Shown: piece after piece, positions 39,913 to 63,224 of the stretch
How the letters are laid out: every line of letters starts with the position of its first letter
Position numbering within the stretch: position 1 is the stretch's first letter
Origin: Gigantopelta aegis
Lineage: Eukaryota; Mollusca; Gastropoda; Neomphalida; Peltospiridae
Direction: 5' to 3'
Length of the DNA: 64,000 nucleotides
Assembly: GCF_016097555.1 (NCBI RefSeq)
Contig: NC_054713.1
Span: 5,973,611-6,037,610, forward strand
Program-made: the position numbers and the translations under genes
The notes under the pieces: model-generated
Told to the model about the DNA's origin: nothing
Databases searched by the model: none
Seen by the model: only the letters and a program-made list of their open reading frames with translations

Positions 39913-40010
<98 letters not shown>

Positions 40011-40045
40011 GTGTGTGTGCGTATGTGTGCGTATGTGTGTGTGTG
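39789..40045. repeat. (CATA)n, (CA)n, (TA)n, (GT)n compound microsatellite
   Basis: Four simple repeats in series. The CA and GT ends are complementary around the TA core and could fold. Reading frames here are spurious. Confidence 0.95.
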
Positions 40046-40309
40046 GAGAGGTTTGTTTGTGTGGGTTTTGTCTTCATATTTTAAGTCGATAAACGATATT
40101 TTTAAAACATATGTGTGTGTTTGTGTGTATGTTTGTATGGGGGGGGGGGGGGGCGAACAGACAGACGTTTGTAAAACTCACTTTGCATTACAGAACAATA
40201 TGGATGAACATTTTGTGTGCGGCTGTTTGTGGTGTTGGCATTGGCTGATTGTACATGTCAAGTTTGGCCTCAATATTGTCTGGAGTCAAGTTAGTATTAT
40301 ATTGTGTAA

Positions 40310-40850
40310 ATATATAGAGGATATTTCGCGTTTATTTTCTCATCGAGTGAAGATTGCAATCACATCTCACGAGTCGCGCTTGGTCGAACAGTGTGATATG
40401 ATTGCAAACTTCACGAGATGAGATATAAATCATATTTCATTTAAAAAAAACATGAAATTTTCTATTTATTATAAAACTTTTGGCAATTTACGTTTATTTT
40501 CAAAATGCCAGCAGCAAGATAGTTTCGGATTTCTTACAGTGAAGATAACACTTTCTACAGTGACGATAACACATTCTATAGTGAAATAGTGAAATTTTCA
40601 CTCTAAAATGTGTTATCGTCACTGAGTGACTGATAACACTTTTATTTTACTGATTTTTTAAGACATTTCACTACGTGTTATATAATAAATAGAGGATTCG
40701 TCACGAGTATTTTTTAATATGGAAAATATCTATGTTAATCGGTATTTGTCGAGGCTCTGCCGAGACAAATACCGATTAACTAAACGATGTTGATATTTTA
40801 CATATTAAAAAACAAGAGTAGTGAATTCTATTTATCCTATAACACTTCTA
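40310..40850. repeat. nested inverted repeats
   Basis: Three hairpins: CTCGTGATTGCAA-like arms at about 40340-40420, GATAACAC..GTGTTATC arms at about 40540-40640, and a larger one at about 40665-40850 centred on AATCGGTATTTGTCGAGGCT / GCCGAGACAAATACCGATT. No coding evidence. Confidence 0.75.
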
Positions 40851-41063
40851 AAAAAACCCATTAAATTGTTTTCGTAAATCACAGTACTAAAGTCGCCACC
40901 ACTTATAATATGACGTCATCACGATTAGCACAGATTAGTTTGACGTCACGCATTTAAAAAAAAATCTTTGAAAACGTTACGCTCAGGTACACGTGTCTTG
41001 TTGGCTTGTAAGCAAATGACCCATCACCTTGCAAATTTGCATACCATTATTAACCGGGTTAAT

Positions 41064-41455
41064 AATATAAGTTGTAGAAGCATCACGAGGGGTATATGGC
41101 TTTTTATGTACCCTCTGTGTGTTCTTTTACCCCGAGCCGAAGGCGAGGGGGTAAAAGAGCACACAGAGGGTACATAAAAAGCCATATACCCCGAGAGATG
41201 CTTCTACAACGAATTTATCTTGCCGACATGTTAAACCATATAGCCAAATAATCAAAATAACGCCAGAAAATAATTGTTAACAATTTATTAACGGAGCCGT
41301 ACCACGCGGACGCGAACGAAACCACTTGCCAGTGACGAAAAATAGTTCCGTCGTTAAACGAGTTTTTAACTTCAAATGTTTGTAATACGAAATTGTCTGA
41401 AACAGATATTAATACAAAAAATAAAAAACACTTTTTTTTAATTAGAAATGTATGT

Positions 41456-41491
<36 letters not shown>

Positions 41492-41807
41492 AACAACTGT
41501 TGCTAATCGCGCATTAATACAATAACACCACGACCGTAATTAGGTGGCCGAGTTCAACGTTGCAGCTTTTAAAAGTATTGAAATAGTGTATTTTATAGTA
41601 AAAATAAAATTAATTATGTATACTTGGTTGATTATCAATGTTATTTATAATCTAATTATTGCTTTAGCATTAACTGGGGCGGCTGGAAACTGTTGGAAAT
41701 TACAGACGGGGTATAAGAGGATTTGGCTCCGCCCACAGGGGAATAAGGGATTTGTCCAACGGCAAACAACCAATGGGATTAAAGAATTTTACATGAAGGC
41801 GAGATAA
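41064..41807 (+). mobile_element. non-autonomous element with 140-bp terminal palindrome, copy 2
   Basis: Collinear with 13174-13912 from AATATAAGTTGTAGAAGCAT to GGCGAGATAA, including the palindrome (41071-41210), a long A run (about 41460-41490) and TTAACTGGGGCGGCTGGAAA. 744 bp. Confidence 0.9.
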
Positions 41808-42452
41808 AGTAAATTATCATATGGGTTTATGACATATCATGGGTAAGTTATAGGATAAATGTTAGTATTATACTGTGTTGAAATGTTTGCTTAATATTGC
41901 TTATTATTTAATATCATAATATATTAAAGACGTTAGTATTATATAATGTGCAGAGAGGTTAGTATTATTGTGCATTATTGTATTATTCGCTGAAATCTTT
42001 CTTATTTTTTAATTCTAATTCAACACATTTGTAAGAACGAATCTGATTGGACCTCTACTAAAAAATTCAGGTGGTAAAATCACCGATATACCAGTCGCAA
42101 ATTTTCTGGCAGAAATACGTCATAAGTTAAGTAAAGAACAGGGTTGTTTTGTAATGACGTCATAAAGACAATTTCTGTAGCGTTCATTTTACATACAGAA
42201 GTCGTTAAATACTGTGATGGTTTTATGTCAGAAATGAACATATTATTCTTTATCAGTCGTTATCTAATCACGAGAGCTGATTAAATATGTCAAATTACAC
42301 ATCTATGTTCGAGTCGCTAACTGTCTAACCACCCATCGTCTGTTAATGGGCAGCCTAATGACGTCACCAGCTGGTGACGTTTATATGCTTATTCTTATTA
42401 CAAATGTGGCAATTTCCTATTTAAAATCAACCAGCAAACAGTTTAATTAGAA

Positions 42453-42604
42453 TAGGGATAACCCTACTGTGTTTTTCGATTTGCGGACGTATATCGGTGG
42501 TTTTACAGTAGCAAATTTACGCGTCGACAATAAAACTTAATTTGCGACAGTAAAACCACCGATATACGTCCGCAAATCGGAAAACACAGTCGGGTTATCC
42601 CCTA
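42453..42604. repeat. 152-bp hairpin element
   Basis: TAGGGATAACCCTACTGTGT, CGATTTGCGGACGTATATCG and GGTGGTTTTAC are mirrored by GTAAAACCACC, CGATATACGTCCGCAAATCG and ACACAGTCGGGTTATCCCCTA. The arms are about 60 bp and nearly perfect. Confidence 0.93.
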
Positions 42605-42851
42605 ATTGCCCAGCATAGCTTTGCTTCCGCGTTGTCATTATTGGCTATTTGTTTTCAGGCCATACATATGCCGTAGGATATAAAAGACCTAATGTTCATG
42701 TCTGTAGTTGAGTTCCCATGTTATTTCTTGGACGAAGTGTCGCTACTCTTAAAATATACAAACTATTTGCCGGATTTTATAATGTTTTCATTGAACTTAT
42801 TTTATAATGTGCTCAATGGCTTTATTTCTAATGTTGTCATTGAACGTATTT

Positions 42852-43430
<579 letters not shown>

Positions 43431-43913
43431 TCTTTTTTTAAAATATATTTTGTACTGTTCTCGTTGGCTTTATTTTTAATGTGGTCATTGAACTTATTTT
43501 ATAATGTTCTCAATGGTCTTATTTTATGAAGTTTTCATTGAACTTATTTTATAATGTTCTCATTAGCCTTATATTATAATGATCTCAATGACCTTATTTT
43601 ATGTTCTCAATGGTCTTATTTTATAAAGTTTTCATTGAACCTATTTTATAATGTTCTCATTAGCCTTATATTATAATGATCTCAATGGCCTTATTTTATA
43701 TTGTTCTCAATGGTCTTATTTTATAGTTTTCATTGAACTTATTTTATAATGTTCTCATTAGCCTTATATTATAATGATCTCAATGGCCTTATTTTATAAT
43801 ATTTTCATTGAACTTATTTTATAATGATCTCAATGGCCTTATTTTATAATGTTTTCATTGGCCTTATTTTATAATGTTTTCATTGGCCTTATTTTTAATG
43901 TTATCGTTGGACT

Positions 43914-44230
43914 TTGGGGTGGGACGTAGCCTAGTGGTACAGCGTTCGCTCGATACGCGGTCGGTCTGGGATCGATCCTCGTTTGTGGGCCCATTGGGCT
44001 ATTTCTCGTTCCAGCCAGTGCACCACGATTGGTATATCAAAGGTCGTGGTATGTACTATCCTGTCTGTGGGATGGTGCATATAAAAGATCCCTTGCTGCT
44101 AATCAAAAAGAGTAGCCCATGAAGTGGAGACAGCGGGTTTCCTCTCTCAATATATGTGTGGTCCTTAACCATATGTCCGACGCCATATTACCGTAAATAA
44201 AATGGATGAGTGCGTCGTTTAATAAAACAT
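43914..44230 (+). repeat. SINE A-head/tail-1
   Basis: GGGTGGGACGTAGCCTAGTGG, CTGGGATCGATCC, core, then GACGCCATATTACCGTAAAT and GTGCGTCGTTTAATAAAAC. Confidence 0.93.
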
Positions 44231-44392
44231 GTCTTGCTTTCTTTCGTTGGACTTACTTTTAATGTTCTCGATGGCCTTATTTTATAGTGTATTCATTGTC
44301 CTTTTTTGTAATGTTCTCATTTGAATTATTTTATAATGTTCTCGTTGCTTGGTAACAAACATCTTTTGCTTTCCTCTTCTTGATCGTTTTAG

Positions 44393-44467
44393 AGATCTCG
44401 GTTATGAAGACAACCTCGATACTCATGGTTTGGTGTCTGGCTGCTATACAAGCATCACTGGCCTTGG
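44393..44467 (+). CDS. signal-peptide exon of an unidentified secreted or membrane protein
   Basis: After an acceptor (TGATCGTTTTAG, ending 44392) comes a short leader and ATG at 44404. It encodes MKTTSILMVWCLAAIQ then ASLALG, with n-, h- and c-regions of a classical signal peptide. The exon ends at TTGG|GTAAGG (44467), phase 1. The last 30 bp of the exon with its donor are repeated four more times downstream (44525-44905). No cognate downstream exon is certain. The phase would fit the IgGFc-binding exon at 59934, so it could be an alternative first exon of that gene or a relic of a tandem paralogue. Confidence 0.6.
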
Positions 44468-44905
44468 GTAAGGTTCAATACCACCATTTATTTCTATTTT
44501 ATTTTATTATTATTTATTATTATTTGCTGCTATACAAGCATCACTAGCCTTGGGTAAGGATCCATACCACCATTTATTTCTACTTTATTTTGTTTTACTA
44601 TATTTTATTATTATTTATTATTATTTGCTGCTATACAAGCATCACTGGCCTTGGGTAAGGTCCCATACCACCATTTATTTGTTTTACTATATTTTATTAT
44701 TATTTATTTTATTTGCTGTTATACAAGCATCACTGGCTTTGGGTAAGGTCCCATACCACCATTTATTTCTATTTTATTTTGTTTTACTATATTTTATTAT
44801 TATTTATTATTATTTGCTGTTATACAAGCTTCCCTTGGTAAGGTCTCACACCATCATTTATTTTAAAATAGTATAATGATGACTTACGCACCTTCCCTTG
44901 GATGA
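44441..44905 (+). repeat. tandem array containing exon end plus 5' splice site, 5 units of about 86-101 bp
   Basis: Unit starts CTGCTATACAAGCATCACTG (or CTGTTATACAAGC) at 44441, 44527, 44628, 44716 and 44817. It includes GCCTTGG|GTAAGG and then CCATACCACCATTTATTT and TTATTATTATTTA spacers. The first unit is the genuine exon end. The fifth is the most diverged. Confidence 0.92.
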
Positions 44906-45195
44906 GGACGGGATGAAGTCCAGTGATTTGAAGTTGGGTCTAGAATTGATCCCCGTAGGTGGGCCTATTTCTTGTTTCAGCCAGTGTATAATGACTGGTA
45001 TATCAAAGGACATGGTATGTGCTATCCTGTCTATGGAATGCTGTATATAGAAAATCCCTTGTTACTACAGAAAATATGTTGCGGGTTACTTCGCTAAGAC
45101 TATATGTCAAAATTACCAAATGTATGACATCCAATATGCGATGATTAATGAATCCATGCGGTCTGGTTGTGTTGTTAAACAAAACTAATGTTAAC
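44905..45195 (+). repeat. SINE A-like/tail-2, diverged
   Basis: GACGGGATGAAGTCCAGTG head, CATGGTATGTGCTATCCTG core, GACATCCAATATGCGATGA tail. Confidence 0.8.
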
Positions 45196-45199
45196 TTTT

Positions 45200-45441
45200 C
45201 ATTGAGCAGCTGACATACACTCACAATCAACTATTCATTACATGGTCCACTGAGCAGCTGACATACACTCACAATCAACTATTAATTACATGGTCCACTG
45301 AGCAGCTGACATACCCTCACAATCAACTATTCATTACATGGTCCACTGAGCAGCTGACATACACTCACAATCAACTATTCATTACATGGTCCACTGAGCA
45401 GCTGACATACACTCACAATCAACTATTCATTACATGGTCCA
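45200..45441. repeat. 48-bp tandem repeat, 5 copies
   Basis: TGAGCAGCTGACATACACTC and ACAATCAACTATTCATTACA recur with exact 48-bp spacing (45204, 45252, 45300, 45348, 45396). Confidence 0.95.
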
Positions 45442-45583
45442 AATGTGATGTCAGACACAGATAGAACATTGTTATTCCGTATAAAGAAACTTAATTGTTT
45501 GAGCTAACGAGGAAAGAGTATATTGTAATTACGCATTATGCTCTACATGAAATAGGTTAAGGAAATGCCTTGCAAAATGTAAA

Positions 45584-45775
45584 GGCGGGACGTAGCCCAG
45601 TGGTAAAGCGCTCGCCTGATGCGCGATCGGTGTAGTATCGATCCTCGTCGGTGAACCCAGTGGGCTGCTCTTCGTCCCAGCCTGTGCACCACGACTGACA
45701 TATCGAAGGTCGTGACTTGCTATCCTGTCTGTCTGAGGGATGGTGCATATAAAAGATCCCTTGCAACACAAGGCA
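45584..45775 (+). repeat. SINE A head/core
   Basis: GGCGGGACGTAGCCCAGTGG, AAAGCGCTCGCCTGATGCGC, core to CATATAAAAGATCCCTTGC. Tail absent. Confidence 0.9.
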
Positions 45776-45779
45776 AACT

Positions 45780-47087
45780 TTAAGGGAAAATTATACTATT
45801 TGGTCAAACTTTAAATGCCATTTCACCTTTTTAAAATGTTCACATATTATAAAGATATGCTTTAATATATTACTGGAATATACATAAACATAAAATCATA
45901 GGCCACCGTATAAAATGTTGATACACGGGCCATAAAGTGAATAGGTGTATGAATCAAGATGACGTTTCCTTTTTTCCGCGCGTAGTCGAATTAATCATGT
46001 TTTATATCCATTGACTATATTTAATTTTAAACGTTTCTGTAATGCAACAAAGCGAACATTATTTGTGTTGCTTAAAATGATATCCAGCAGACACACAAGT
46101 ACATATATTCACTACTGTTTTAAATAGATGGGAACTAAAGGGAAAAGTGACTTTTAAACACATTTACTGACTATTTATTTTACAATTGTATACAGGATCG
46201 AATATCATTACAACTTATAATTTTTGTACAAATAGTAATACAGGGTGAGTAAATCAATATGAGATAATAAAAATGTACTGTCATCGATGAAAGTTGTCTT
46301 ACAGTCAGGGCTTGAAATACCCCATGCATAGAAACAAAATCATTAAATTTCCATCATAAATCTTTTGAGCACTTTTCTTTTAAAAACAGCTTTATTGGAG
46401 TGATCAATTATGTTCTTAAAAACACAAACAGTACAAATAACATTAAAAAAATTCATTGTAGGTGTGGGTGGGACTGGGGTCGGGGTGGAGGATGGGGTGG
46501 GAGTAACGGTGGGGTTGGTCGTGTGGTCATTATTCCCACATATCTGTATGTACTGATAAAATGCTCTACCTGTCAAACGTGACGAACTAGTCAAACAAAT
46601 TACACTAACACATGAGATGTGTTATTGAATACGAAGACAAAATAGCAGTCCTTTGATTGCCGTCCATTGTAGGACTAACATGGAAGTACACTATAGTGCG
46701 TTTAAATCATACAGTTTTTGATAGAATATTATTTAATTTCACATAACATTAACTCTTTTTATCATAACTGTTATCTTTTTTCCCTTCGTTAACATACACA
46801 AACATTATATATGAAAAACAAGTTTTGAAGAACAAAAAGCAGACTATGGCTATAGCCTACATAGACGGACGATATTTTGTTACGTCATTGTGTATGTTTC
46901 AGGGCTAAATCTATCCGTAGTGACGTCACGCCACTGTCGTCCTATTAGTTAACGATTCTACCGCTTTCAAATATAGTGGCGCTGCGTACGATACTATCAT
47001 TTCCTCTTAACTACATTTTGTTGTAATTCTAACGTTTGCTTTGTATATAGATATAATATTGTATATCCTTGTCTTATTTCCTTGCAG
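45780..47087. other. mostly AT-rich, G-rich minisatellite inside
   Basis: A G-rich stretch with several GGGG runs (about 46462-46522) could form quadruplexes. No exon linking 44467 to 47088 was recognised. Confidence 0.4.
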
Positions 47088-47226
47088 GGCTTGTTTTCGA
47101 TTATGCATCTTGTTGTACAGATACGTGAAGAAAAGGACTAGTCAGAGAAACAGGAATAAAGGAAATACGCCAGATATGCCTTTATTGACAAAAGCAAAAC
47201 TGAAGACTCCAAAATCCACAACTTAA
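47088..47226 (+). CDS. probable terminal coding exon, gene unknown
   Basis: After TTATTTCCTTGCAG the frame reads G|ACFRLCILLYRYVKKRTSQR, then a basic and Thr/Pro/Lys-rich tail ending KTPKSTT and TAA. It looks like the end of a membrane helix followed by a cytoplasmic tail. It requires an upstream exon ending in phase 2. The visible upstream exon at 44467 ends in phase 1, so the two do not join directly. A strong acceptor and non-repetitive composition support it, but length is only 45 residues. Confidence 0.4.
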
Positions 47227-47247
47227 GTCATTCCGCAGTGTGTGTGG

Positions 47248-47485
47248 GACCGGATATAGCACGGTGGTAAAGCGCTCACCAGATGCGCGGTCGGTCTAGG
47301 ATCAATCCCCGTTGGTGGACCCATTGGGCTATTTCTCGTTCCAGCCAGACTGGTATATCAAATGCAGTGGGTTTCCTTTCTAAGACTATATGTCAACGTT
47401 AATAAATGTTTGCCATCCAGTAGTCGACGATTAATAAAAAAAAGAAAGAAATGTGCTCTTGTGCTGTTGTTAAAGAAAATAAACT
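47248..47485 (+). repeat. SINE A-head/tail-2, core shortened
   Basis: GGTAAAGCGCTCACCAGATG, GGTCTAGGATCAATCCCC, then AGACTATATGTCAACG and GATTAATAAAAAAAAG. Confidence 0.85.
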
Positions 47486-47589
47486 AAATTTGTGTAGTAT
47501 GTGATTCCATGACGAACATACTGCGGCCTGGTACCAATAGTGTACGCATCACCAATAGTCAAGTGAATTTTTTTTAATTTTTTTTTTTT

Positions 47590-47607
47590 GGGGGGGGGGG
47601 GGGGGGG
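47590..47607. repeat. poly-T/poly-G junction beside a SINE head
   Basis: A T run changes directly to a G run, followed immediately by TACGTGGCCCAGTGGTAAAG. Confidence 0.9.
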
Positions 47608-47608
47608 T

Positions 47609-47680
47609 ACGTGGCCCAGTGGTAAAGCGCTAGCTTGATGCTCGGTCGGTGTGATATCGATCCCCGTTGGTGGCTTATCG
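47609..47680 (+). repeat. SINE A head fragment
   Basis: ACGTGGCCCAGTGGTAAAGC, TCGATCCCCGTTGGTGG, then abrupt change to the D element. Confidence 0.85.
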
Positions 47681-48062
47681 GACCATAGTAAGAAAACGAC
47701 ACTTGCAGGGTTATGGACGCCATTTTGGTTTTATGGTCTGATATTATGATGTAGTCGGAATACCCTGCGCGTGCTGTAACCTCATCGTGGTGCAGGCGTG
47801 TAACATTCTCTTTGAGAATGGCCAATACAGCACAAATCCCCTTGTTTTCTTCGAGATACAATTGAAATTTTGAGTAAAAGTCAGTATCTACTGGATGTTT
47901 TGTATTTTTGCAGTTCTCTAAACTGTGTTTTTATTTAAATCTTAAATTTTTATATTGATGTTGATCATCACTTTATTTGTTTGCATTACCATAGTTTGAC
48001 ACCCAATAGCCGATGTATGTTTCGTGCTGGAATGTCGTTAAACATTCATTCATTCCATTCCA
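47680..48062 (+). repeat. SINE-like type D element, longest copy
   Basis: ATCGGACCATAGTAAGAAAA through GCGCGTGCTGTAACCTCATC, CATTCTCTTTGAGAATGGCC, TTGATGTTGATCATCACTTT, TTGACACCCAATAGCCGATG and terminal (CATT)n. Its 3' half corresponds to 1447-1728 on the minus strand. Confidence 0.8.
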
Positions 48063-48404
48063 TTCATTCCATTCTTGATACGAGATAACTGTATTTGATT
48101 ATTTCATTACAGAGGGAGAAAAAAGAAAATAATCAGTTATGTCATTAAACAAGACCATATCAATCCATAAAACCAAACCGCTGCAAGCGTCGCATTTTTA
48201 CTATGGTATGTATTACAGTTTTATTTATTTCTGAACCGAATTTTTGTTTTTTAATTGCACACAAAAATTGTCGTTTTATATTATTTCCAAAACAGTTTTA
48301 CTCCTTTTTCTTGCGTCCAACCAAATTAAAATTATTTACACCATTTTTTAGAAGACTGGGGCAGACTGTAGGTACAGATTCATGCAGGGGTAGGGGTAAT
48401 ACAG

Positions 48405-48670
48405 GTAGCATGGTGGTAAAGGGCTCGGCTGATGCGCGGTCGGCTTGGCATCGATCCCCGCTGAGCTGTTTCTTGTTCCAGCCAGTGCACCACGACTGGT
48501 GTATCAACAGGCCGTGGTAAGTGCTATCCTGTTTGTGTGATGGTGCCTATAAACGATCCCTTGTTATTAATGACAAAATGTAGAGGGTTTCCTCTATATA
48601 TATGTAAAAATTAGCAAATGGCATTTCACATCCAATAGCCGATGAAACAATGTGCTCAAACATTTTAAAC
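48405..48670 (+). repeat. SINE A-head/tail-2, diverged
   Basis: GGTAAAGGGCTCGGCTGATG, GGCATCGATCCCCGCTGAGC, core, CACATCCAATAGCCGATGA. Confidence 0.88.
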
Positions 48671-48734
48671 TTTCATGAAATCGACCACTATTTTGCCAAT
48701 TTTCCTTTCGACTCTGTGTTGTGCAGATATACTG

Positions 48735-49097
48735 CCTCAATCACGTATGACAGTGTTATCGTTCTAATTGTTTGAAAAAATGTGTCATGTAACACCCAGA
48801 GATACGGCCTCCATCACGTATGACAGTGTTATCGTTCTAATTGTTTGAAAAAATGTGTCATGTAACACCCAGAGATACGGCCTCCATCACGTATGACAGT
48901 GTTATCGTTCTAATTGTTTGAAAAAATGTGTCGTGTAACACCCAGAGATACGGCCTCCATCACGTATGACAGTGTTATCGTTCTAATTGTTTGAAAAAAT
49001 GTGTCATGTAACACCCAGAGATACGGCCTCCATCACGTATGACAGTGTTATCGTTCTAATTGTTTGAAAAAATGTGTCGTGTAATACCCAGAGATAT
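48735..49097. repeat. 73-bp tandem repeat, 5 copies
   Basis: TCACGTATGACAGTGTTATC recurs at 48741, 48814, 48887, 48960 and 49033 (exact 73-bp spacing) with TTTGAAAAAATGTGTC and AACACCCAGAGATACGGCCT. Units are nearly identical. Confidence 0.96.
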
Positions 49098-49151
49098 CAT
49101 CAAACAAGTAACCCAAAACAGATTTCAAGCATAAAATTATTCATAGAATAA

Positions 49152-49545
49152 ACCGGCCTCGGTGGCGTCGTGGCAGGCCATCGGTCTACAGGCTAGTAGG
49201 TACTGGGTTCGGATCCAAGTCGAGGCATGGGATTTTTAATCCAGATACCGACTCCAAACCCTGAGTGAGTGCTCCGCAAGGCTCAATGGGTAGGTGTAGA
49301 CCACTTGCACCGACCAGTGATCCATAACTGGTTCAACAAAGGCCATGGTTTGTGCTATCCTGCCTGTGGGAAACGCACATAAAAGATCCCTTGCTGCTAA
49401 TAGGAAAGAGTAGCCCATGTAGTAGCGACAGCGGGTTTCCTCTCAAAATCTGTGTGGTCCTTAACCATATGTCTGACGCCATATAACCGTAAATAAAATG
49501 TGAAGAGTGCGTTGTTAAATAAAACATTTCTTTCTTTCTTTCATG
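49152..49545 (+). repeat. SINE B-head/tail-1, full length
   Basis: CCGGCCTCGGTGGCGTCGTG to TGCGTTGTTAAATAAAACAT with a TTTC-rich end. Confidence 0.94.
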
Positions 49546-49862
49546 GAATAACGGCCACAAACATTCATGGATGTTTAACAACATGATTCTGCGCATTTGT
49601 CGATTAACAGGTGAAAATACTTGGATACAGAGAGGAGAAAGGATACTAAACCATTTAATTAATTTTGATAATAAAAACATTCCCTTTTTAAAAGGAACTT
49701 TTTAATAAAACAAGAATCACTACGGATATATATTTGTGTTGATCTCTCTTCGAGTTAACTACATACGTGAATACTGAACTATTATTGTCTGTAATAATAT
49801 ATTCGTATATGCAAATACAGAAACAAAAATGAATAATAATAAAATTGAGTTGACGGGAGGGT

Positions 49863-50312
<450 letters not shown>

Positions 50313-50406
50313 TACGTAGGTTTCGTTTCGCATCTTTATACTGGCTCCTCGTATCTATAGTATGTTGAATAAGACCACTACATCGATTTGTTTCTCGCTA
50401 ACGACG

Positions 50407-50790
50407 GGGCGGGACGTAGCCCAGTGGTAAAGTGGTCACTTGATGCTCGATCGGTTTCGGATCGATCCTAGTCGTGCACAACAACTGGTATATCAAAGGA
50501 CGTGGTATGTGCTATCCTGTCCTAGCATATAAAAAATTCCTTGCTACTAATGTAAAACCTGTCCTGAACAGAGGGGCCACAGAAAGTCGATACCTGCGCC
50601 CATGACAGGCGTGTTCTACAACAGCTTGTTCTGAATGTGCACGTTAAAACCTATAAACTGACCTTTTCCTAATGGAAAACAATATAGAGCGTTTCCTTTC
50701 TAAGTCTGTATGTGAAAATTACTAAATGTTTGACATCCAATAGCCGATGGTTAATAAAGCAATGTACGCTATTGGCGTCGTATGATATGG
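50407..50790 (+). repeat. SINE A-head/tail-2 interrupted by another repeat
   Basis: GGGCGGGACGTAGCCCAGTG, core, ...TTGCTACTAATG; then about 50551-50675 is foreign (CATGACAGGCGTGTTCTACA, ACAGCTTGTTCTGAATGTGC, the inverted counterpart of repeats at 24330 and 25006); the SINE resumes at GAAAACAATATAGAGCGTTT. CTAATG borders both sides. Confidence 0.85.
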
Positions 50791-51017
50791 CGATTTTTGA
50801 TGTTCAATATGGATCTGGGCCCATGGTGGAGTTAGCCGGACCTTTCGCAAGGTACATGGGAGCTAAATTTGTTCTAAAGGTCCAAAAGATTTGAAATCCA
50901 CCCTCAAACTTTGGTCCCCGAAAAATGGTCACGTGGCAGCCAAATATGACCTCACTATTTATTTCAAAAAGTATAACTATGTGTATGGGGAGGGGGTAAG
51001 TTTTCTTAATGGCCACA

Positions 51018-51018
51018 G

Positions 51019-51061
<43 letters not shown>

Positions 51062-51090
51062 ACCACCACCACCACCACCACCACCACCAC
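51018..51090. repeat. (CA)n(CCA)n microsatellite
   Basis: CA repeats change to CAC/CCA repeats. A complementary (GT)n run follows at about 51221-51306. Confidence 0.95.
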
Positions 51091-51246
51091 CTTTCAAAAC
51101 CGTTGACAGTTTCATACAGGTCAATTTGTACTGTGTTAGATGATTTGGTAGTGTAAAAAGTAGTCTTAAGACATGGCTGCTTGATACAAGTGGGTGGAGT
51201 AAATGTAGATTTCACTTTAAGTGTGTGTGTGTGTGTGTGTGACTGT

Positions 51247-51288
<42 letters not shown>

Positions 51289-51429
51289 TTGTCTGTGTGT
51301 GTCTGTGTTTGGTGCAATGTTGTCAACAGGGTTTCCTTTGTGTTATGCACTTTGACATTCTAAAAAATATATTATATACTTTTGCATAAGGCAATCATAA
51401 ATATAAACACAACATAAAAAGAAAAAAGA

Positions 51430-52000
51430 TCTGCTGAAGGAGTTAGCAGTGGTTTATCAAGGATTAGCCTAGCCGCTCTTTTTGTAGCTTTATTAATCTG
51501 ACAACGTATGATTTATTGCAGCTATCCCATGTTACTGACCCGTAATAAAATATGGCAAGAATATATGCATTATAGAATAGAGATTGTGATTCTGGGGTGA
51601 GAAATTTGCTAATTCGTCTCAAAAGAGCCAGTTTAGCTGAAACTTGTGAACAAATGCGATCAACTTGTGTGTTCTAGCTAAGATTTTGATCAACACAGAG
51701 TCCTAAATGTTTCTGGCAATGAGCAGGTGATATAGGGTTATTATTGATACTGAGTTGCAACTGATCAGTTCGGCCCAATTTTTGCAGTGTACTAATTAAC
51801 ATACATGTAGTTTTAAATGAGTTTACAAACATATTATTTTCGATGCGCTAAGAGTTTACAGCATCTAAATTTGTTTGTAACGTGGTCTCTATTACAGACA
51901 AATGTCTGCCTATTAGTACCAATATCTCAGCACCTATGTCACCTAGGATCGCAATTCTTTGGTCTAAACTAACATTTTTAGGGGCAAGGAATGCAATGAT
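51430..52000 (-). mobile_element. LINE reverse-transcriptase fragment
   Basis: Minus strand reads RICSQVSAKLALLRRISKFL, TPESQSLFYNAYILAIFYYG, SVTWDSCNKSYVVRLIKLQK, the thumb/connection region that follows the RT palm in non-LTR retrotransposons of the Jockey/I-like group. The upstream part (about 51720-51990) carries the preceding residues in degraded form. Truncated at both ends. Confidence 0.8.
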
Positions 52001-52162
52001 AGAATTACAAATATTACTGGCTAGATTTGTATAAAAGGAACGAAATATAGAGAAATATTATTGAGGAAAACAAACGTCTATTGTGCATCACCAGCTTCTT
52101 GCTGTATTATTATCGTTATGTTTTAGAAAAAATCTTTAAGAAGAAACTGTACAAAGAAAACA

Positions 52163-52275
52163 AGAAATGTTTTATTTAACGACGCACAAAACATTATGGC
52201 TTCGAAAATATGGTTAACGACCACGGAGATAATTAAAGAGGAAACCCGCTGCCGGCTCTCCATGGATTACCCTTT
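52163..52275 (-). repeat. SINE tail-1 fragment, minus strand
   Basis: TTTTATTTAACGACGCACAA, ATATGGTTAACGACCACGGA, AGAGGAAACCCGCTGCC. Confidence 0.75.
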
Positions 52276-52776
52276 TTGATATGCAGTCAAATAATTCACG
52301 AGAATGTACTTGAAGATCGATACGGTAACATATTGTAGTCACGGCATAGATTAACACAATAATTGTAATATGCAGAGGTATTGTGTTTTTTTAATTAAAG
52401 CTATACTTATCACAGTAGCAAATACAGTTCAATACACTCCAGTGCAGCACATCTTTTACCGTATCACCTCAGACTTGAAACTACACTTAACGCTTCACTT
52501 CCATTCCGTTAAAATGCCATTTAGTCGAATAATAAAATAAATTATAAAAAATAGCGAGTGAAATGCTAATCATCTAACGGGTACATCCATTTGAACCAGT
52601 CAACATTTCTTTAACAGAATAACAAGAAAGATATGACAATAACATGTTATAAAACTATTAGAAAATACAACATTTTAATGAACATTTTAGTGAATAATAC
52701 TTGAGGAATAGTTTGAAAGTTTGAAAGTCATTTAGTGATTAATGCCAATGCTATCCGAGTTCAATATTAATACGAC

Positions 52777-53097
52777 TTAAAATAGTACCGGAATACACCT
52801 TGCTTAACATCATTATTAATCAGTCACAAGGTATTTTAAACAAATGCAACACAAATTAGAGACATCTCAGTTAATATATTAGTTAATATAATTAAACACT
52901 TTACCTATTTTATTATTATTACTAACAAACCCAAACGAGTAGAAGCTTGATCGTGTAAGTTTACGCAAATCCATTTATTAAACACCCAAACGTCCCAAGT
53001 AAAGATTGTACCGACTTTTCCATCATTGTGCAGGTAAGGCTATGGTCTTATCTTTTAGACCAATTGCAGTGGAGACGTAGACGTAATGGGATGACGC
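52777..53097 (-). repeat. dispersed repeat R, minus copy
   Basis: Inverted counterpart of 19535-19858, e.g. ACACCTTGCTTAACATCATT, ACCTATTTTATTATTATTAC, CCGACTTTTCCATCATTGTG. Confidence 0.88.
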
Positions 53098-53382
53098 CCA
53101 CATATTTTATTTCAGGTCTTGGATGCTATAAGTAGAAAGGCTGTCTTTATCAAAAGTCCATCCCCACTCCTCCACCGAGTGGGTAACTGTTCATTGATAA
53201 GACATAATTCATCTTGGTAGGCAACCTGTTTTGACTGCTGCAGTCGGGCATCCTGGTGTAAACGAAATGGTTTCTATTATCTTCCCCTTGATTCATTGAC
53301 AATTGTCAGGTCACTGAATTTATCATACAAGATAACTATAATGCATTTCAGTAGCTTGGGGATATTTCCAGGTGGTAAATGT

Positions 53383-53416
53383 TGCTCTAGAGGTGTCGTT
53401 AAACAAAACAAACTTT
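53383..53416 (+). repeat. SINE tail-2 terminal fragment
   Basis: CTCTAGAGGTGTCGTTAAAC and AAAACAAACTTTCA only. Confidence 0.75.
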
Positions 53417-53461
53417 CATTGTGAATGTCGAATCACACAAGTTTAGAAATTTCAGACTTCA

Positions 53462-54617
53462 TGTGACGGAACATGCTCTTAATTTGTTTTCGCCTGTGGC
53501 GATATTAATTGTTTTAGAGGTCCGTGTGCAGCCCCAATATGCACTTAAGCCCATGTGGGCACTTTGTTACGTAATACCTCTGCGCGACGGTGGTCGAGCT
53601 GTTTTCAATACACACTCAGAACAGGTTCGGAGGCCATGTGGCCAGTAGTTACGTAATACCTCCGCTAGTTCGGTACGATCGGGGTATTGCTGGCGCGAAC
53701 TAGGCGACGACCAGTCTAGGCTTCTAAGAAAGAGATGCCGTCTTGGTCGCTGTCGAAATATCACTTGTAGGTATTCGGTGCCGCCTTGTACCCCCAGGCG
53801 ATATTCGGATTTTTATTATAAATAGCTAGGGTTTTAGAGATATCAGGGAGAAACATAGGAAGGCTCCCAGGGAACGTTGTCCGTCCGGACTGGTAATTAT
53901 CTTATTTCTGCTCTGTTGTATAACCTTGATGTGATTGATGTGACTTTAAATATTTTAATACTGTATTATACCAATATTATTTAGACGGTGTTTCCGGTAA
54001 TCTGACGAAGTAAACTGAAGGATTCATTGTTCTAAAAATTATTAAAGCTTAACCAGTCATCCTAGAGGACCTAGGTAAACTGTAGGTTATTGTCTTTATT
54101 GTGATAGGTACCAGTATTAAGTCTGTACTACAAGGTTACTGAATGAGTAGTTACAGGTTAATTAAAAATTAACCAGTTAGGAACAGAGTTGTAATTCCTT
54201 TATTAATTAAGTTCCCCTGGAAGCGTTTCTCAATTATGACACGTGTGGGTGTTGTGTCACGGTGAAGTGATTAGAATATTGTGTAAACTAGACACCTAGA
54301 GATTGATTAACTAATTAAGTGATCAGTTCTGGGTTGTTATTATTTGTTGTTGTTAATTAACTACTGCGGCAGTACATTTGTCAGCGTAGTATTAATACAG
54401 ATTCCAAAGTGTATTGTGTTTTTGTTGTGTTTTCTAGTGAACTAAACGTGCTATATTACATATACTTTATATAAGATCTTATGACTGATCATACCTAGAC
54501 GAGCCACGCGGGTTTTGAACTGCCCGTTACAGAGAGATCTAATAGATATACAGTTAGGAGAGAGATTTGGATAATCGTGTTTCATTCAGTTACGGGTATT
54601 GTAGGATCCCCGTGACA
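53462..54617 (+). mobile_element. solo LTR, family L, plus orientation
   Basis: About 1,156 bp from TGTGACGGAACATGC to GATCCCCGTGACA, flanked by the 5-bp duplication CTTCA (53457-53461 and 54618-54622). It is the inverted counterpart of 25529-26693, and the two align end to end with many substitutions and small indels, so the insertions are not recent. It looks whole at its ends, and no internal region is attached. It contains TTACGTAA at 53567 and 53649. Confidence 0.93.
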
Positions 54618-54689
54618 CTTCATGTGTAAATGATACAGTCGCCATAGTTTCAAATGGCGAATGAAAGTAGCGCAGAGAAACAAATGGTT

Positions 54690-54772
54690 ACATGTTTTCA
54701 AGATATACAGCTGGAGAAAAGACTTTCAGAATTAAGGAATTACCAAAATGGAAACTATTACTGTGATTCTCT
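54690..54772 (+). pseudogene. relic of the SLC18B1-like MFS first exon
   Basis: GGAGAAAAGACTTTCAGAAT, TAAGGAATTACCAAAATGGA and AACTATTACTG align with the minus-strand exon at 35797-35997 (the KELPKWKLLLL coding stretch). Shortly after CTATTACTG the frame is lost (a TGA follows, four bases are missing relative to the intact exon) and the sequence dissolves into (TCTC)n. The upstream ATG at 54654 is in another frame and does not match the intact exon's start. Confidence 0.75.
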
Positions 54773-54795
54773 CTGTCTCTCTCTCTGTCTCTCTG

Positions 54796-54878
<83 letters not shown>
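54772..54878. repeat. (CT)n(TA)n microsatellite replacing exon sequence
   Basis: Starts where the MFS exon relic loses similarity. Followed by CGGTTTCGCCAGTATCATAT, faintly like the foldback family F end. Confidence 0.93.
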
Positions 54879-54959
54879 GATAAGAGTAATATCTCCTTGC
54901 GTTTCGGTTTCGCCAGTATCATATACCAGGGACAAAATTAATTAACTATATATATATTT

Positions 54960-55910
54960 GTATTCTTAATGTGTACTAGTAATAGTTACGTTAATGGAAC
55001 ACAGTCTGGTAATATATTTCTGTGAATTGGCATGATATTATTGGCAAGACAAGACAAGACTGTATTACACTCAGGCCGTATTCTACGGCATATGAGGACA
55101 TGTGTTCAATGGTAGGACATGGTTTAGAGGAGAAAAAATTGTATAATTATAATATTGGTAGTAGTACAGATATAATAGAATTGCGAAAATGAGTAAATAT
55201 GATATTTCGTCAATAGTATATAAATATAGCTAATGATGTAGTACACAAATACGTTATATGTTTGCTACATATAGAGTTTGGGGTGGGCGTGTACGAAACA
55301 TAGCATCCATGAAACCACATCGAGATCTTAATTATACACGATAATGGAAGTGATAAATATACGATGTTCAAAACTATGTATCTTTTTTCTGTAATTTTGT
55401 TGTTGATGATATTTGGCTATGGATGATTTAAACATAAGAGTTGGACTGAATGTTTGTGTTTGCGTTTTAAACATGCCAGCAAGTTGGATGTACTACTGCT
55501 TGTCATTTTAACAGGATGCCCAGACCGTGCTTATGGTAGTATTTATATTGTTGGTAGGGACTTACGGCTTCGTAAATTTATTCATGATTATGTTTTGTTA
55601 GGCGACACATACATACACGCACACACACATGCACGCACACACAGAAATAACGCACACGCAGACATCACACACAGACACATACGCACGCACACATACAGAC
55701 ATTACAAATATCCACACAGAGATACATATACAGACATAAACAGACACGTGACCACACAACAATTATATTTAAAGAACAAGCAAAACCTCTTATAAAAGTT
55801 TGGTTCAATTATATCCTTGTCATCGGTATGTTTGATTGCGTGTTCGATTAATGCCGACAGAACAGAGCAGAACAGAACAGAACTTGATTACGCTCAGGCC
55901 GTTACACAAC
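54960..55910. other. no convincing gene
   Basis: AT-rich, with degenerate (CA)n at about 55607-55740. A short hydrophobic frame after TTTTAACAG (about 55516) lacks a donor and support. Confidence 0.4.
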
Positions 55911-55914
55911 AGAA

Positions 55915-56100
55915 GGAAGGAAAGAAGGAAATGTTTTATTTAACGACGCACGCAACACATTTTATTTACGGTTATATGGCGTCAGACATATGGTTAAGGA
56001 CCACACAGGTATTGAGAAAGGAAACCCGCTGTCGCCACTTCATGGGCTACTCTTTTCGATTAGCAGCAAGGGATCTTTTATATGCACCATCCCACAGTTA
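55915..56100 (-). repeat. SINE core/tail-1, minus strand
   Basis: TTTAACGACGCACGCAACAC, GGTTATATGGCGTCAGACAT, GGGATCTTTTATATGCACCA. Confidence 0.92.
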
Positions 56101-56469
56101 CACAACGGCATATGATATATAAACTGTAGCGACAAGATAGGGTTTACAGGATACAGTAGAACAATGGTATTAATACAAATGCAATACAGTAAAAGAGACA
56201 ATAGTATACTACAAATACAATAGAATAATAAAGACAGTAATATAATACAATTAGAATAAAGTAATGTAATGCCACATTGTTGTAATTACTACCAAATGTA
56301 TTAATCAGACGTGCGAATGCGCGCACACATATGTATACTTGGGTAGTGATAGACATTGTAAATAATTCATATATACATAGGCCAGTGTTTGGTTTTGGGG
56401 GTTTACTGTATTTATCGATAATTGTTTTTATTAATTTACATACTTTTTTTTAGAACACTTATTTTGCTA

Positions 56470-56900
56470 TTCGTCATTAGTTATTTAAATTTCAGCGTAC
56501 TTGGTTTATTATAATAATATGGCTTAACCAAATGTTTACGGGTGTTAGTGAAATAAGTACATGTGAATAAATAGTGAAAATCGTCTCCAATGTCATTATT
56601 GCTACATAACGTGCACGTTCGATCTTCTTCTGGGGTGTTGTTCCAGCGTCCTATTTCGACTGGTAAGTAGTGGTTAGATGTTCTAAATTTGAGTAATATA
56701 GCCCAGGATGTTTGTGGTAATATAATAAGATAGTTTTCTAATCTAAGGTTTTCTTTAAATAGAGTGTACGCTTTACATCTTGATGATAAAGCTATGTTAC
56801 TATCCCATTGTTGTAAATACTGATCGTTATGTCTTAATTTTACTTGATTAAGAAGTATTTTTATGGATGAAAAGTTCCGTGACATCCAAACATTTGTCAT
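56470..56900 (-). mobile_element. LINE 3' fragment (RT C-terminal region)
   Basis: About 139 open codons on the minus strand: KLRHNDQYLQQWDSNIALSS, then LLKFRTSNHYLPVEIGRWNN, then RTCTLC..DDFHYLFTCTYF and KPYYYNKPSTLKFK. The C-x2-C...H...C motif and the LPVEIGRW block are those of the C-terminal end of non-LTR retrotransposon ORF2. Same family as 36430-36700. 5'-truncated. Confidence 0.85.
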
Positions 56901-57224
56901 GCCTAGCTGGTTAAATGTATCTCCGACAAGACGGTGGAATCCGTGTTAATCGACTAGTGTGAGCCAAGCTTTAATCTACATTCCATTATGAAAGAGAAAT
57001 AACTGTTGACATATTCAGTCAAGTGTATGGCGCGGAACACAAAGACTGCATACCTGATTAGTTAACCTCAAATATACTGCCGTCCATTGAACACGCACCT
57101 GTTAGATTTGAAAGGATATGAAAAGGTAAAACTAGTATATTAATCTTTTAATTTTGTTTTATATAACAACTGAATGTATTCTGATAGACAATAATTGCTA
57201 CGTGTCTCCCCTGGGTTGTCATGC

Positions 57225-57345
57225 CACGATCTGAACAGATCAGGCCCTTTTAGGGGCCCCTATGGGCAACCTAGCGAGACATGTCAACACCAACTAGGTC
57301 TACTTAGCGAGCTACTCTCGGCATACTAATCTTCCAAAACTATAT
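57225..57345 (+). repeat. dispersed repeat S, copy 1
   Basis: CTGAACAGATCAGGCCCTTT, GGGGCCCCTATGGGCAACC and TAGCGAGCTACTCT recur at 62468-62565. Confidence 0.8.
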
Positions 57346-57559
57346 GTAGCTCCCTATTTTTACTTTTTGGCGGACCGTTAAAAATTGCGCCTAATTTCCT
57401 TCATAAATTTGCGCACCCTTTCTCTTTGGCTTAATCCTACGGTAGCATAACACCATGCTACCCTCCGCCTGTTACTGGCCACGGCCAGACTGCTGGTGCT
57501 CCTTTGCACATGCCAGTGAAGGCGCATCGATGGTATCATCGTTATGCCATCAGAAATAA

Positions 57560-57790
57560 GGCCGGTAGGTACTGGGTTCGCAGCCCGGTACCGGTTCCCA
57601 CCCAGAACGAATTTTAACTACTCAATGGGTAGGTGTAAGATCACTACACCGACTTCTGTCTCACTAATCACTAACCGACCGTCCATGGCAGACAGCCCAG
57701 ATAGCTGAGGTGTGTACCCAGGACAGCGTGCTTGAACTTTAACTGAATATAAGCACGAAAATACGTTGAAATGAAAACATTTAATGTGTT
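57560..57790 (+). repeat. possible SINE-like repeat (type E)
   Basis: GGCCGGTAGGTACTGGGTTC with CAGCCCGGTACC, and AATGGGTAGGTGTAAGATCA, share words with the B head but in a different context. No shared core follows. Single copy in the window. Confidence 0.45.
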
Positions 57791-58094
57791 TATAGCAACC
57801 TCGCTTACACGTTGCGATAGCAACAACAACGGAAAATTGGCTGTTGCATTTTCAATGGCGTTCAGTATATTTGCTAAAATGTGTTACGAAAATATTTTGA
57901 CAAAATTCGAAATCGAAAATATTTGTCGATGCTAAGCTTCTGAGCATGGTTTATTTTCATAATCTTACTGTATAACAGGGACGGACTGAGCTTGGTTGTT
58001 ATTTGAAACGAAACGAACATCGCCCATTTAACAGAACAGATCTACTGCAAAAAATAACGTGTACAGGGATACATGGTGGAAAACGAATTTCATC

Positions 58095-58140
58095 ATGAAC
58101 ATGTTTTTCACACTGTTGACGGTTGTCGCGTGTCATGCAG
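58095..58140 (+). CDS. secreted IgGFc-binding/TSP1 protein, exon 1 (signal peptide)
   Basis: ATG at 58095 encodes MNMFFTLLTVVACHA, a typical signal peptide, and the exon ends in phase 1 at GCAG|GTAAAA. It joins the exon at 59934 in phase, giving ...CHAG-RDNQGREF. This is the first coding exon, because the mature domain begins directly afterwards. The 5' flank (about 57800-58094) shows no clear TATA motif at a fixed distance. Confidence 0.75.
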
Positions 58141-58164
58141 GTAAAAGTAGTTTTATTTATGTGT

Positions 58165-58493
58165 TAAAAGTTTGTTTTGTTGAACGGCACCACTAGAGCA
58201 CATTTGTTTATTAATCATCGTCTATTCGATGTCAAACATTTGGTAATTTTTGACACATAGTCATGGAGAGAAAACCTGCTACATTTTTCCATTAGTAACA
58301 AGGGATCTTTTATATGCACCATCCCACAGACAGGATAGCAAATACCACGTCTTTTGATATACCAGTCGTAGTGCGCTGGCTGGAACGAGAAATATCCCAA
58401 TAGGCCTACCAACGGGGATCTATCCCAAACCGACCGCGCATCAAGTGAGCGCTTTACCACTGGGGTAAATCCCGCCCCCTTATTTATGTTTCT
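58165..58493 (-). repeat. SINE A-head/tail-2, minus strand
   Basis: AAAGTTTGTTTTGTTGAACG tail, core, then CATCAAGTGAGCGCTTTACC and AAATCCCGCCCC. Confidence 0.93.
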
Positions 58494-58734
58494 ATGTGCG
58501 TGGCAGGCTCGTAGGAAGGATGTCTGGAGTTGGGGGGGGGGGGGGGGGGGGGGGGCACAATCTCTAGTTAGTGGGTCACAGTCTCTAGTGGGGGCACAAA
58601 CCATATTTATTTTTATATATATAGAATAGGACAAAAAAATTCAATTTTTGTTTTCATTGAGGTGGGGAGCTGTAACACTACCTAACTCCGGTTTCTACGG
58701 GTCTGCGTGGAGCGAGATGATGCTCTGTGCTAGA

Positions 58735-58850
58735 GTGTTAGCCTGAGAAGTGATGGCTCGCAGGATCAATCGCCCTCAATGGAATCTGGGGTTTTCCCTC
58801 CCAACCAGTGCCCCACGACTGGTACACCAAAAACCGTGGCATGTATTTGA
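58735..58850 (+). repeat. SINE type C head, diverged
   Basis: GCTAGAGTGTTAGCCTGAGA, CGCAGGATCAATCGCCCTCA, CCCACGACTGGTACACC. Confidence 0.6.
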
Positions 58851-58855
58851 ATTCC

Positions 58856-59160
58856 TATAGGGCAGTGGTAAAGCATTCGCTTAATGTGCGGTCGTTCTAG
58901 GATCGATAACCCGTTGGTCAGCCCTTTGGGCTATTTCTCGTTCCAACAAGTGCACCACGACTGGCATATTAATGGCCGTGGCATGTGCTATTCTGTCTGT
59001 GGGATGGCACATATAAAATATCCCTTGCTACTAATGGAAAAATGTAGCGGGTTTCCTCTCTAAGTCTAAATGTCAGAATTAACAAATGTCCGACATCCAC
59101 TATCCGATGATTAAATGAATATGCTCTAGTCGTGTCCTTAAACAAAACAACTTTAACTTT
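58856..59160 (+). repeat. SINE A-head/tail-2
   Basis: GGCAGTGGTAAAGCATTCGC, core, CGACATCCACTATCCGATGA, CTTAAACAAAACAACTTTAA. Confidence 0.9.
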
Positions 59161-59459
59161 TCCTATTGGGAAAGTGCATACAACATATATCTTGCTACTC
59201 GATAGTAGTAGCCCCCTCCCCCAATCACACCCCTCTTTCCCCCATCACATTTTATACTAGCCCGTCGTAGCAATAACACGTGTGAAAGACATCCACCCCC
59301 CCCCCCCCCCCGACTCAATATAAAATACTGCCTACACCAATGCACTCGATGTAAATTTAAAGCGGCTTAATCTGTGCGACTAGACTTTACTGGCAACTCA
59401 CACCCCACCCCCACCCTCACACAATTCACGTCTTCACGTTTGATTTTGGAATTCATTTT

Positions 59460-59583
<124 letters not shown>

Positions 59584-59933
59584 TTCCCGCCTTCATATTT
59601 GATTTTAGAATTCATTTTGCTGTCTTTCTAAATTGGGGTAGGCCGTTATTAAGATATGTTTCAGTTTGTTTATTACCTTCTGCTAGATTTGTATGCACTA
59701 AATGAAAAAAATTGATATTGACACATACGTAATCCGAACAGCAAAACAGAAAAGACGAAGGGGTGCTTTGACATGGTCATGGTTCCTTATTTTATTTATT
59801 TTTTCATTTTGTTTCATTATCATTTTATTTTATATATTAGTATTCTATTATATTGTTCTGTTCTTGTAATATTCCATGTCATTACGTTGCATTCCATTAT
59901 TTTCATACCACTCCATTCTGTTTTAACTCTCAG

Positions 59934-61209
59934 GCAGAGACAACCAAGGGAGAGAATTCATTATCGGTTTCATTGACAACAAACCGACCGGAAATCCTCT
60001 TGACTTGGAAATTTCATTACAACCATATCCAACTTACCGTGCATTGTCAACGTCACGACGCCCGGATACAACGATTCGTTCTTCGTACATCTCGAAGTCG
60101 CTCGGCGCACCATTCAAAAGATAACTCTTCCCAGTGGCATGCGAGGCACGGGAACCTCTAAAGAACGGAAGGCTATCTGGATTCGTGCCACAGGGGAGAT
60201 AACTGTGTACGCCGATAATAAACAGACGTACTCCACCGACGCTTTTGTAGCTCTGCCAGTCGATATCCTGGGAAGGGAATATTACGCAATCACGTACAAG
60301 ACTCACCCCGAAATAATGATCGTTGGGATTGAAGATGAAACAAATGTTATCATTACCTTTCCCATCGGGGCTACGTTACCCATTTCTGTGTTCTATAAGG
60401 GAATAACATATGGAGACGGCGAAACGATGACCATATCTCTAAACCGTTTCGACACGTTTCACATAAACCAGGTTTCAACGAACGCCGATTTCACCGGCAG
60501 CCATATTGTTTCCAATAAACCAATCGCTGTCTTCTGCGGGAACTACAAAATCACAGTCCCGCTCAGCTCGGGGAGTTCAGACCATCTCGCCGCGCAAATG
60601 ACGTCACTTGACACGTGGGGGATGACCTTCTCTTTCGTCAGTACACCGTCGAGAGGCGTCGGAGACTTGTGTCGGGTGCTGGCTTCCGAAGACAACACGA
60701 CGGTAACAGTTAGCGGGATGTCTCCTCAAATGATCGCTCTCGCTGGGGATTTCCTGGAACTGGACTTTGCCACCGACGACTTTAAGACGATAGCCGCAGA
60801 CAAACCGGTTTTGGTGGCAGCATTTTCTAAGACCTACCAAAACGATGGATTCCAGTTAGGCGGAGATCCGTCGATGTCTCTCGTCGTTCCTAACAGACAG
60901 TTTGGTTCGGATTACACGTTCAGCACCGTGGAGACTCCTTCCGGGGAGTTCTACAACTACCTCACCGTCACCATTGAGGACGTCCGCAAATCTGGTCTCA
61001 GGATTGATGACGCCGAACTGGGCGCGATCGCATGGAAGGGTATCCCGGATTCCGGTGGTATGGTGGCAGGAACTCTGACCTTTGAACCCGGCGCTCATAA
61101 CATCTATCATGTTGACCCTACAGTTGTGTTTATGGCGATGGCATCAGGAGTCGCGCAGCTGAACTCGTACAAGTATGCGGCTGGGATGCGTTTGGCGCAT
61201 ATTAATACG
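59934..61209 (+). CDS. IgGFc-binding domain exon of a secreted protein (one apparent frame break)
   Basis: After CTCTCAG the frame reads RDNQGREFIIGFIDNKPTGN and PLDLE. From about 60004 the homologous reading continues in a second frame: FITTISNLPCIVNVTTPGYN, IQKITLPSGMRGTGTSKERK, STDAFVALPVDILGREYYAI and on to GMRLAHINT, with donor ACG|GTACGA at 61210. Order and motifs (N-terminal GREFIIGF, STDAF..LP..LG.EYY, SNKPIAVFCGN, YAAGMRL) are those of the IgGFc-binding domain found in FCGBP-like mucus proteins. The two frames meet at GAAATTTC (60009-60015). One extra T would restore the frame, so this is either a homopolymer assembly error or a real inactivating deletion. All downstream exons look intact, favouring the error. 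Predicted role: extracellular mucus or surface glycoprotein. Confidence 0.85.
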
Positions 61210-61500
61210 GTACGAATGTCAGTCTAAGGTTATATTTGAGCGAGTGTTCTAGAGTATACTATACAAATCGTGTTCAGTATAAAACTCGAGTTATAAATAC
61301 AGAATTAGTGTTGGTCTCTCGAAGATTAGAATGAAAATCATGTTCATATCCTTTCAGGAATGCATTTAAATTGTTAATAATAATAATAACAGAGTAAACT
61401 AACGTTAAGCAAATAAATAAGTAAATAAATAAATAAACATTCCACTGCGATCTCTTTCCACATCATGTGGCATCCAGGGCCGTACCCTGATCAAAATCCT

Positions 61501-62706: not shown

Positions 62707-63035
62707 GTTAAAGTTTGTTTTGTTTAACGACACCACCAGAGCACATCGATTGATTTATCATCAACTATTGGATGTCAACTATTTGGTACTTCTTCCATAT
62801 AGTCTTAGATAAGAAACCAGTTACATTATATTTGTTTGCATTAATAATAAGGTATAACTTATATGCACCATCTCACAGACAGAATAACACATACCACGGC
62901 CTTTGATATAGCAGTCGCGGTGCACTGGCTGGAACTAGAAATATTGCAATGGGTCACCGACGGGCATCGATTCTAGACCAAACTGCGCACCAGGCGAGCG
63001 TTTTTACCACTGGGTTGCATTCCTTCCCCTTTATG
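62707..63035 (-). repeat. SINE A-head/tail-2, minus strand, ending at a splice acceptor
   Basis: AAAGTTTGTTTTGTTTAACG tail to ACCACTGGGTTGCATTCCTT, the reverse-complement head. The C/T-rich head end is followed within about 20 bp by the TSP1 exon acceptor. Confidence 0.92.
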
Positions 63036-63041
63036 TTTTAG

Positions 63042-63224
63042 GTGACGGTAGCTGGGGTGAGTGGCAGTCGTGGGGAACTTGTTCTTTGACGTGTGGCATT
63101 ATTTCCGGTCTGAGCACGCGAATAAGAAATTGTGACAACCCGGCACCTGTCAATAATGGACTCTATTGCGCCGGAAACGGAACTGAAAACCAAACATGTG
63201 TGCCATCTACAGCGAACTGTCCAA
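63042..63224 (+). CDS. thrombospondin type 1 repeat exon
   Basis: 183 nt from ATGTTTTAG to CCAA|GTTAGT, phase 1 at both ends, the classic TSP1 cassette. It reads SWGEWQSWGTCSLTCG, then STRIRNCDNPAPVNNG, YCAGNGTENQTCVPS and TANC. It has the WxxWxxW core, CSxTCG and all six cysteines. The gene continues beyond the window, probably with further TSP1 repeats. Confidence 0.95.

Follow-up and report, generated by a model that had tools for sequence, protein, structure and literature searches.

A minisatellite across a predicted 5′ splice site in Gigantopelta aegis, and arrays at other exon ends of the same genome

A tandem array at positions 44440-44863, on the plus strand of the 64,000-nucleotide stretch of DNA analysed here (the window; G000:C15:5973611-6037610 of an assembly of 1.149 Gb), is a minisatellite that lies across a 5′ splice site of a predicted exon. 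In the reading that we favour, with a probability of about 0.6, it arose by tandem duplication across the exon/intron junction, the first of its five donors is used and donors 2-5 are decoys. Three unrelated arrays of this genome, that of the window among them, start inside an exon, predicted or recognized by homology, and multiply its predicted donor.

The window array comprises four full units of 86, 101, 88 and 101 bp (44440-44525, 44526-44626, 44627-44714 and 44715-44815) and a partial fifth (44816-44863). Unit 1 consists of the last 28 nt of the predicted exon and the first 58 nt of its intron, beginning with the donor GT at 44468; the corresponding GTs of units 2-5 are at 44554, 44655, 44743 and 44838. 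The initial annotation had described a repeated exon end of 30 bp with its donor. Its five copies are confirmed, but instead of 30-bp elements set between spacers, the entire period of 86-101 bp is repeated, with 28 nt exonic or exon-like and 58-73 nt intronic. A repeat search found the junction core five times, at spacings of 86, 101, 88 and 95, and TRF called an array at 44440-44829 with periods of 86, 101 and 189 (best score 669). The top-scoring period, 189, sets units 1 and 2 against units 3 and 4, which suggests a pattern as after duplication of a dimer. The 30-mer at donor 1 (44444-44473) has copies at 44631 (no mismatches), 44530 (one) and 44719 (two), a count that is ungapped and so misses unit 5, in which 6 nt are absent just before the donor. 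Throughout the rest of the window, on either strand, no site came within 10 mismatches of this 30-mer. Units 1-4 differ pairwise at 0 to 3 of the 28 exon-like positions, and unit 5 is more diverged. The recurrence of the junction in five copies is far beyond chance. Neither Rfam nor a tRNA scan gave any match in the window.

GTAAGG is present in all five units, preceded by last exon-like bases at 44467, 44553, 44654, 44742 and 44837; the first four were placed correctly from the outset, and the fifth had been put at about 44840. Units 1-4 read TGG/GTAAGG and unit 5 reads TTG/GTAAGG, with near-equal scores of 3.85 and 3.96, respectively. Under a donor matrix, on which the rankings depend as they do below on an acceptor matrix, each donor falls within the best 1.0% of the 8,214 GT sites of the two strands. 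The five donors are good, as had been proposed for every copy, and not optimal.

Spliced in silico to an acceptor at 59934, donors 2-5 would extend the exon by 86, 187, 275 and 370 nt, to 161, 262, 350 or 445 nt, and none of the four extensions is a multiple of three. A TAG in frame with the exon (44545-44547, plus strand) lies inside unit 2 and would be carried by any transcript spliced from donors 2-5, such that all four products would end there at 47 residues. Because donors 2-5 break the frame and include this TAG, the array offers no longer secreted proteins. We therefore reject the idea that distal donors would insert intron sequence of use to the protein behind the signal peptide.

The exon is predicted at 44393-44467 (75 nt, plus strand). 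Its coding part, 44404-44467 (64 nt), encodes MKTTSILMVWCLAAIQASLAL plus one base and ends in phase 1. By the acceptor matrix, its acceptor ranks among the best 1.07% of 6,236 AG sites. Among 10 candidates in 40001-59933 that run from an ATG to a phase-1 donor, the exon ranks second in hydrophobicity, after a much longer candidate from the ATG at 43874 and before one at 58095. The hydrophobic, signal-like peptide, the ATG, the strong acceptor and the phase-1 donor agree with its earlier description as a signal-peptide exon, and it probably encodes a secretion signal.

The full exon was located once in the single assembly searched. At least two relatives lie elsewhere on the contig: L002 (C15:6226044-6226097, minus strand; 84% over 57 nt) and L024 (C15, about 5968797; 80% over 60 nt), which a first genome search missed. 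Although the local matches span only 56-60 nt of the exon, both relatives keep the acceptor, the ATG, a gap-free 64-nt coding part, phase 1 and a GTAAG donor, and no array was found in either neighbourhood. Because these features are kept without the array, the relatives favour a real exon that would have acquired its array later. The L002 intron has little likeness to that of the window, and the L002 peptide is poorly hydrophobic, with 12 of 13 codon changes relative to the window exon altering the residue. A search for a downstream exon common to the three gave matches that resembled dispersed repeats by eye.

The same comparison bears on an alternative that we consider unlikely, in which the exon at 44393 is not in use, being a relic or pseudo-exon beside a minisatellite, and hence there is no competition among donors. 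The loss of hydrophobicity in L002 is consistent with disuse; the retention of acceptor, ATG, 64-nt length, phase and donor in both relatives argues against it, as do the strong acceptor and hydrophobic peptide of the window exon itself. Further points in its favour come from the possible partner gene. The first domain found downstream of the exon on the plus strand is IgGFc_binding (PF17517, E 5e-57), in an exon at 59934-61227 (plus strand) with a phase-1 acceptor that the exon at 44393 fits; a Pfam search of 44468-59934, translated in the three plus frames with X for each stop, found nothing above the cut-off and one match below it. The IgGFc-binding exon begins GRDNQGREFIIGFIDN, and the joined protein would read ...ASLALGRDNQGREFIIGF. 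A rival signal-peptide exon candidate at 58095-58140 (plus strand, phase 1), 1.8 kb before the IgGFc-binding exon, fits equally well in phase and is nearer. In the paralogues L031, L032, L034 and L036 the distance from the signal exon to the IgGFc motif downstream is 0.5-1.3 kb, compared with 15.5 kb for the exon at 44393. Because of this nearer candidate and the spacing in the paralogues, the exon at 44393 may be an alternative first exon of the IgGFc-binding gene or part of another gene; the same two points would suit an unused exon.

The reading frame of the IgGFc-binding exon changes near its start (59934-60122): reading from 59936 stops after the junction, and the domain lies in another frame, open from 60004. 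Either the assembly is at fault here or the lesion is real. A PDB sequence search with the open frame gave 0 matches. The family has at least 69 matches in the genome. Thrombospondin type 1 matches occur downstream of the IgGFc-binding exon at 62939-63226 and, past the window, at L008:223-1011.

If the array did arise by tandem duplication over the exon/intron junction, as we favour, it would then have grown on the intron side, with unit 1 remaining the exon end and the coding exon intact. The spliceosome would pair the single acceptor with the first donor across a 75-nt exon by exon definition, leaving donors 2-5 as decoys, and leakage to them would yield the truncated 47-residue product, a probable NMD target. 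Added copies in this register would be cheap as long as splicing stays with donor 1, which would explain why the array persists. Within this reading we infer the transcription of the exon, the dominance of donor 1, NMD and the argument from selection. The five donors score alike, and dominance of donor 1 would follow from the general principles of exon definition. The near-equal scores, the poorly hydrophobic L002 peptide and the reported use of downstream donors in human IFI6 count against the reading as a whole.

It is improbable, in our judgement, that splicing draws on several of the donors, in the manner of IFI6, and that these fix what fraction of the mRNA is productive, with distal use giving truncated, decaying transcripts and output tuned by copy number. 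The five donors are intact and near-equal, as such a role would have it, and downstream repeat units of IFI6 serve as donors in the excerpt of that report available (PMC4526556), but every distal product here is truncated and the invariance of the 7-nt donor core across units is not significant (shuffle P 0.06). Competition among the five donors is itself something that we infer from their sequences. Scarcely credible is a reading of the later units as tiny in-phase cassette exons (15, 15, 15 and 9 nt), each bounded by an ACAAG and the donor of its unit, which would add ASLAL steps to the signal peptide: lengths and phases fit, but the AGs are weak (top 25%, 25%, 11% and 21% of AG sites) and exons of 9-15 nt are poorly recognized by splicing.

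Arrays at other predicted exon ends have the same arrangement. In the IgGFc-binding paralogue L032, an array of 15 units of 44 bp (L032:1374-2029; G000:C6, about 74.26 Mb) starts in the predicted signal-peptide exon (MAVAYLIFFLCTLEISLLS plus one base), spans the donor CTG/GTATGT and runs into the intron. It has 14 listed donor-like sites, of which 12 score at least 3.4, and the fourth donor would add 43 codons in frame. The neighbouring L033 carries about 28 copies of a unit of about 44 bp (L033:264-1487; G000:C6, about 74.26 Mb), and its signal exon has CTG where ATG is expected; the two arrays probably have one origin. L034, in the same cluster, has no such array. Of the stretches upstream of ten IgGFc-binding exons (the window and L031-L039), six contained a recognizable signal exon: by script in L031, L032, L034, L036 and the window (58095), and by likeness to L032 in L033, which the script did not list, its ATG being gone. 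In the corresponding stretches of L035, L037, L038 and L039 none was recognized. L032 and L033 are the two of the six with a donor array; the exon at 44393, as the starting point of the study, is left out of the six.

The third array, 40 units of 42 bp (L025:222-1927, plus strand; G000:C15:5953832-5955537), belongs to an SLC18B1-like exon. It begins 17 nt before the donor of the exon and repeats that GTAAGT junction, with 31 donor-like sites; the 42-bp unit amounts to 14 codons, and 11 further units stay in the frame of the exon before a slip in the twelfth. The 49 residues of the exon match SLC18B1 (PDB 9d7u, E 2.1e-5), and a Pfam search with them returned 0 matches. Words of 7-10 nt are all that the units of the three arrays (window, L032 and L025) share. 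A 36-bp array in L015 (2035-2273, reverse strand) carries a GTAAGT-type donor in most units; no exon was evident at this array by eye.

We surveyed 35 loci (340,156 bases) on both strands for arrays with a period of 30-150 and at least 2.8 copies; L001, L002 and L003 were left out owing to their overlap with other stretches, and the survey predates L038 and L039, such that an array of four 42-bp units in L038 is not in the count. There were 66 strand-arrays, 32 read on the plus and 34 on the minus strand, and minisatellites are common and dense in the surveyed loci. In 4 of the 66, no fewer than 60% of the units hold a strong donor: the window array, L032, L025 (plus) and L015 (minus). Enrichment of donors in array units is not borne out, as 4 of 66 were seen by a stricter count compared with about 3.0 of 64 by random placement. 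The window array was the starting point and L032 came from a gene-family search; only L025 is from an unselected neighbourhood. At this density some minisatellites must presumably lie over the ends of exons, and those in this register would be spared by selection. We regard as doubtful the broader proposition that 5′ splice junctions of exons are recurrent birthplaces of minisatellites here, with many exons bearing five to forty interchangeable donors and fidelity set by position rather than sequence.

Further minisatellites of the window lie at 6828-7181 (117-bp units), 45203-45441 (48 bp) and 48724-49096 (73 bp), with 95-97% matches. The 3′ part of an integrase-like open frame at 20130-21269 (minus strand; rve falls just short of the Pfam cut-off and Integrase_H2C2 just passes it) crosses a 27-bp tandem array at 20161-20348. 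A long open frame at 17012-18301 matches amino acid permease families (PF13520). The open frames at 15576-16640 and 22111-23154 form two sets that closely resemble each other; by eye they have the appearance of Tc1/mariner-type transposases.

A series of near-identical donors that follows a single acceptor amounts to a natural competition experiment on 5′ splice-site choice. The three unrelated cases in one genome offer 5 donors (window), 12 strong donors among 14 (L032) and 31 (L025) at near-regular spacing, and such arrays could show whether, among equal sites, exon definition selects the first. If they are common, they would be a little-noticed route from tandem repeats to splice-site variation, one that is tolerated for as long as the first copy keeps its register, and they would mislead gene finders.

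Like the window array, those of L032 and L033 start in the exon, include its phase-1 donor and enter the intron, but they are built of an unrelated unit of about 44 bp with GTATGT or GTGTGT donors, in 15 and about 28 copies. The L025 array also starts in its exon and repeats the junction; it differs in its 42-bp unit, its 40 copies and its 11 in-frame units. The window array is not a tandemly duplicated exon, as 28 of the 75 nt are in the unit and the native acceptor is not copied. In a report on intron gain by tandem genomic duplication (PMC4974935), duplication likewise makes extra splice sites, but there an intron is gained; here, if the exon is correctly predicted, units 2-5 follow the first donor and lie inside an existing intron. 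Earthworm metallothionein genes contain intronic minisatellites, with no donor multiplication noted in the excerpt of that report (PMC12783039). The literature searched, mostly without subscription papers and in part as extracts, contained no other donor-multiplying array that we recognized, and we do not claim absence from print. The unit of the human IFI6 minisatellite is 12 bp long and keeps the frame, whereas the 86-101 bp of the window unit shift the frame and introduce a stop. Several donors are reportedly provided by the minisatellite of this gene (6-16, G1P3; Turri, Cuin and Porter 1995, NAR 23:1854). In the excerpt available, two of its downstream repeat units act as donors and give three mRNA species (PMC4526556). 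The window array resembles IFI6/6-16 in that a tandem repeat at an exon end provides several donors to one transcript, here a predicted one, with a donor in each of its five units; it differs in that its donors are predicted, whereas use of the downstream units of IFI6 is reported in that excerpt. A donor-multiplying minisatellite is already known from IFI6, and the recurrence of such arrays within one genome is the interesting part.
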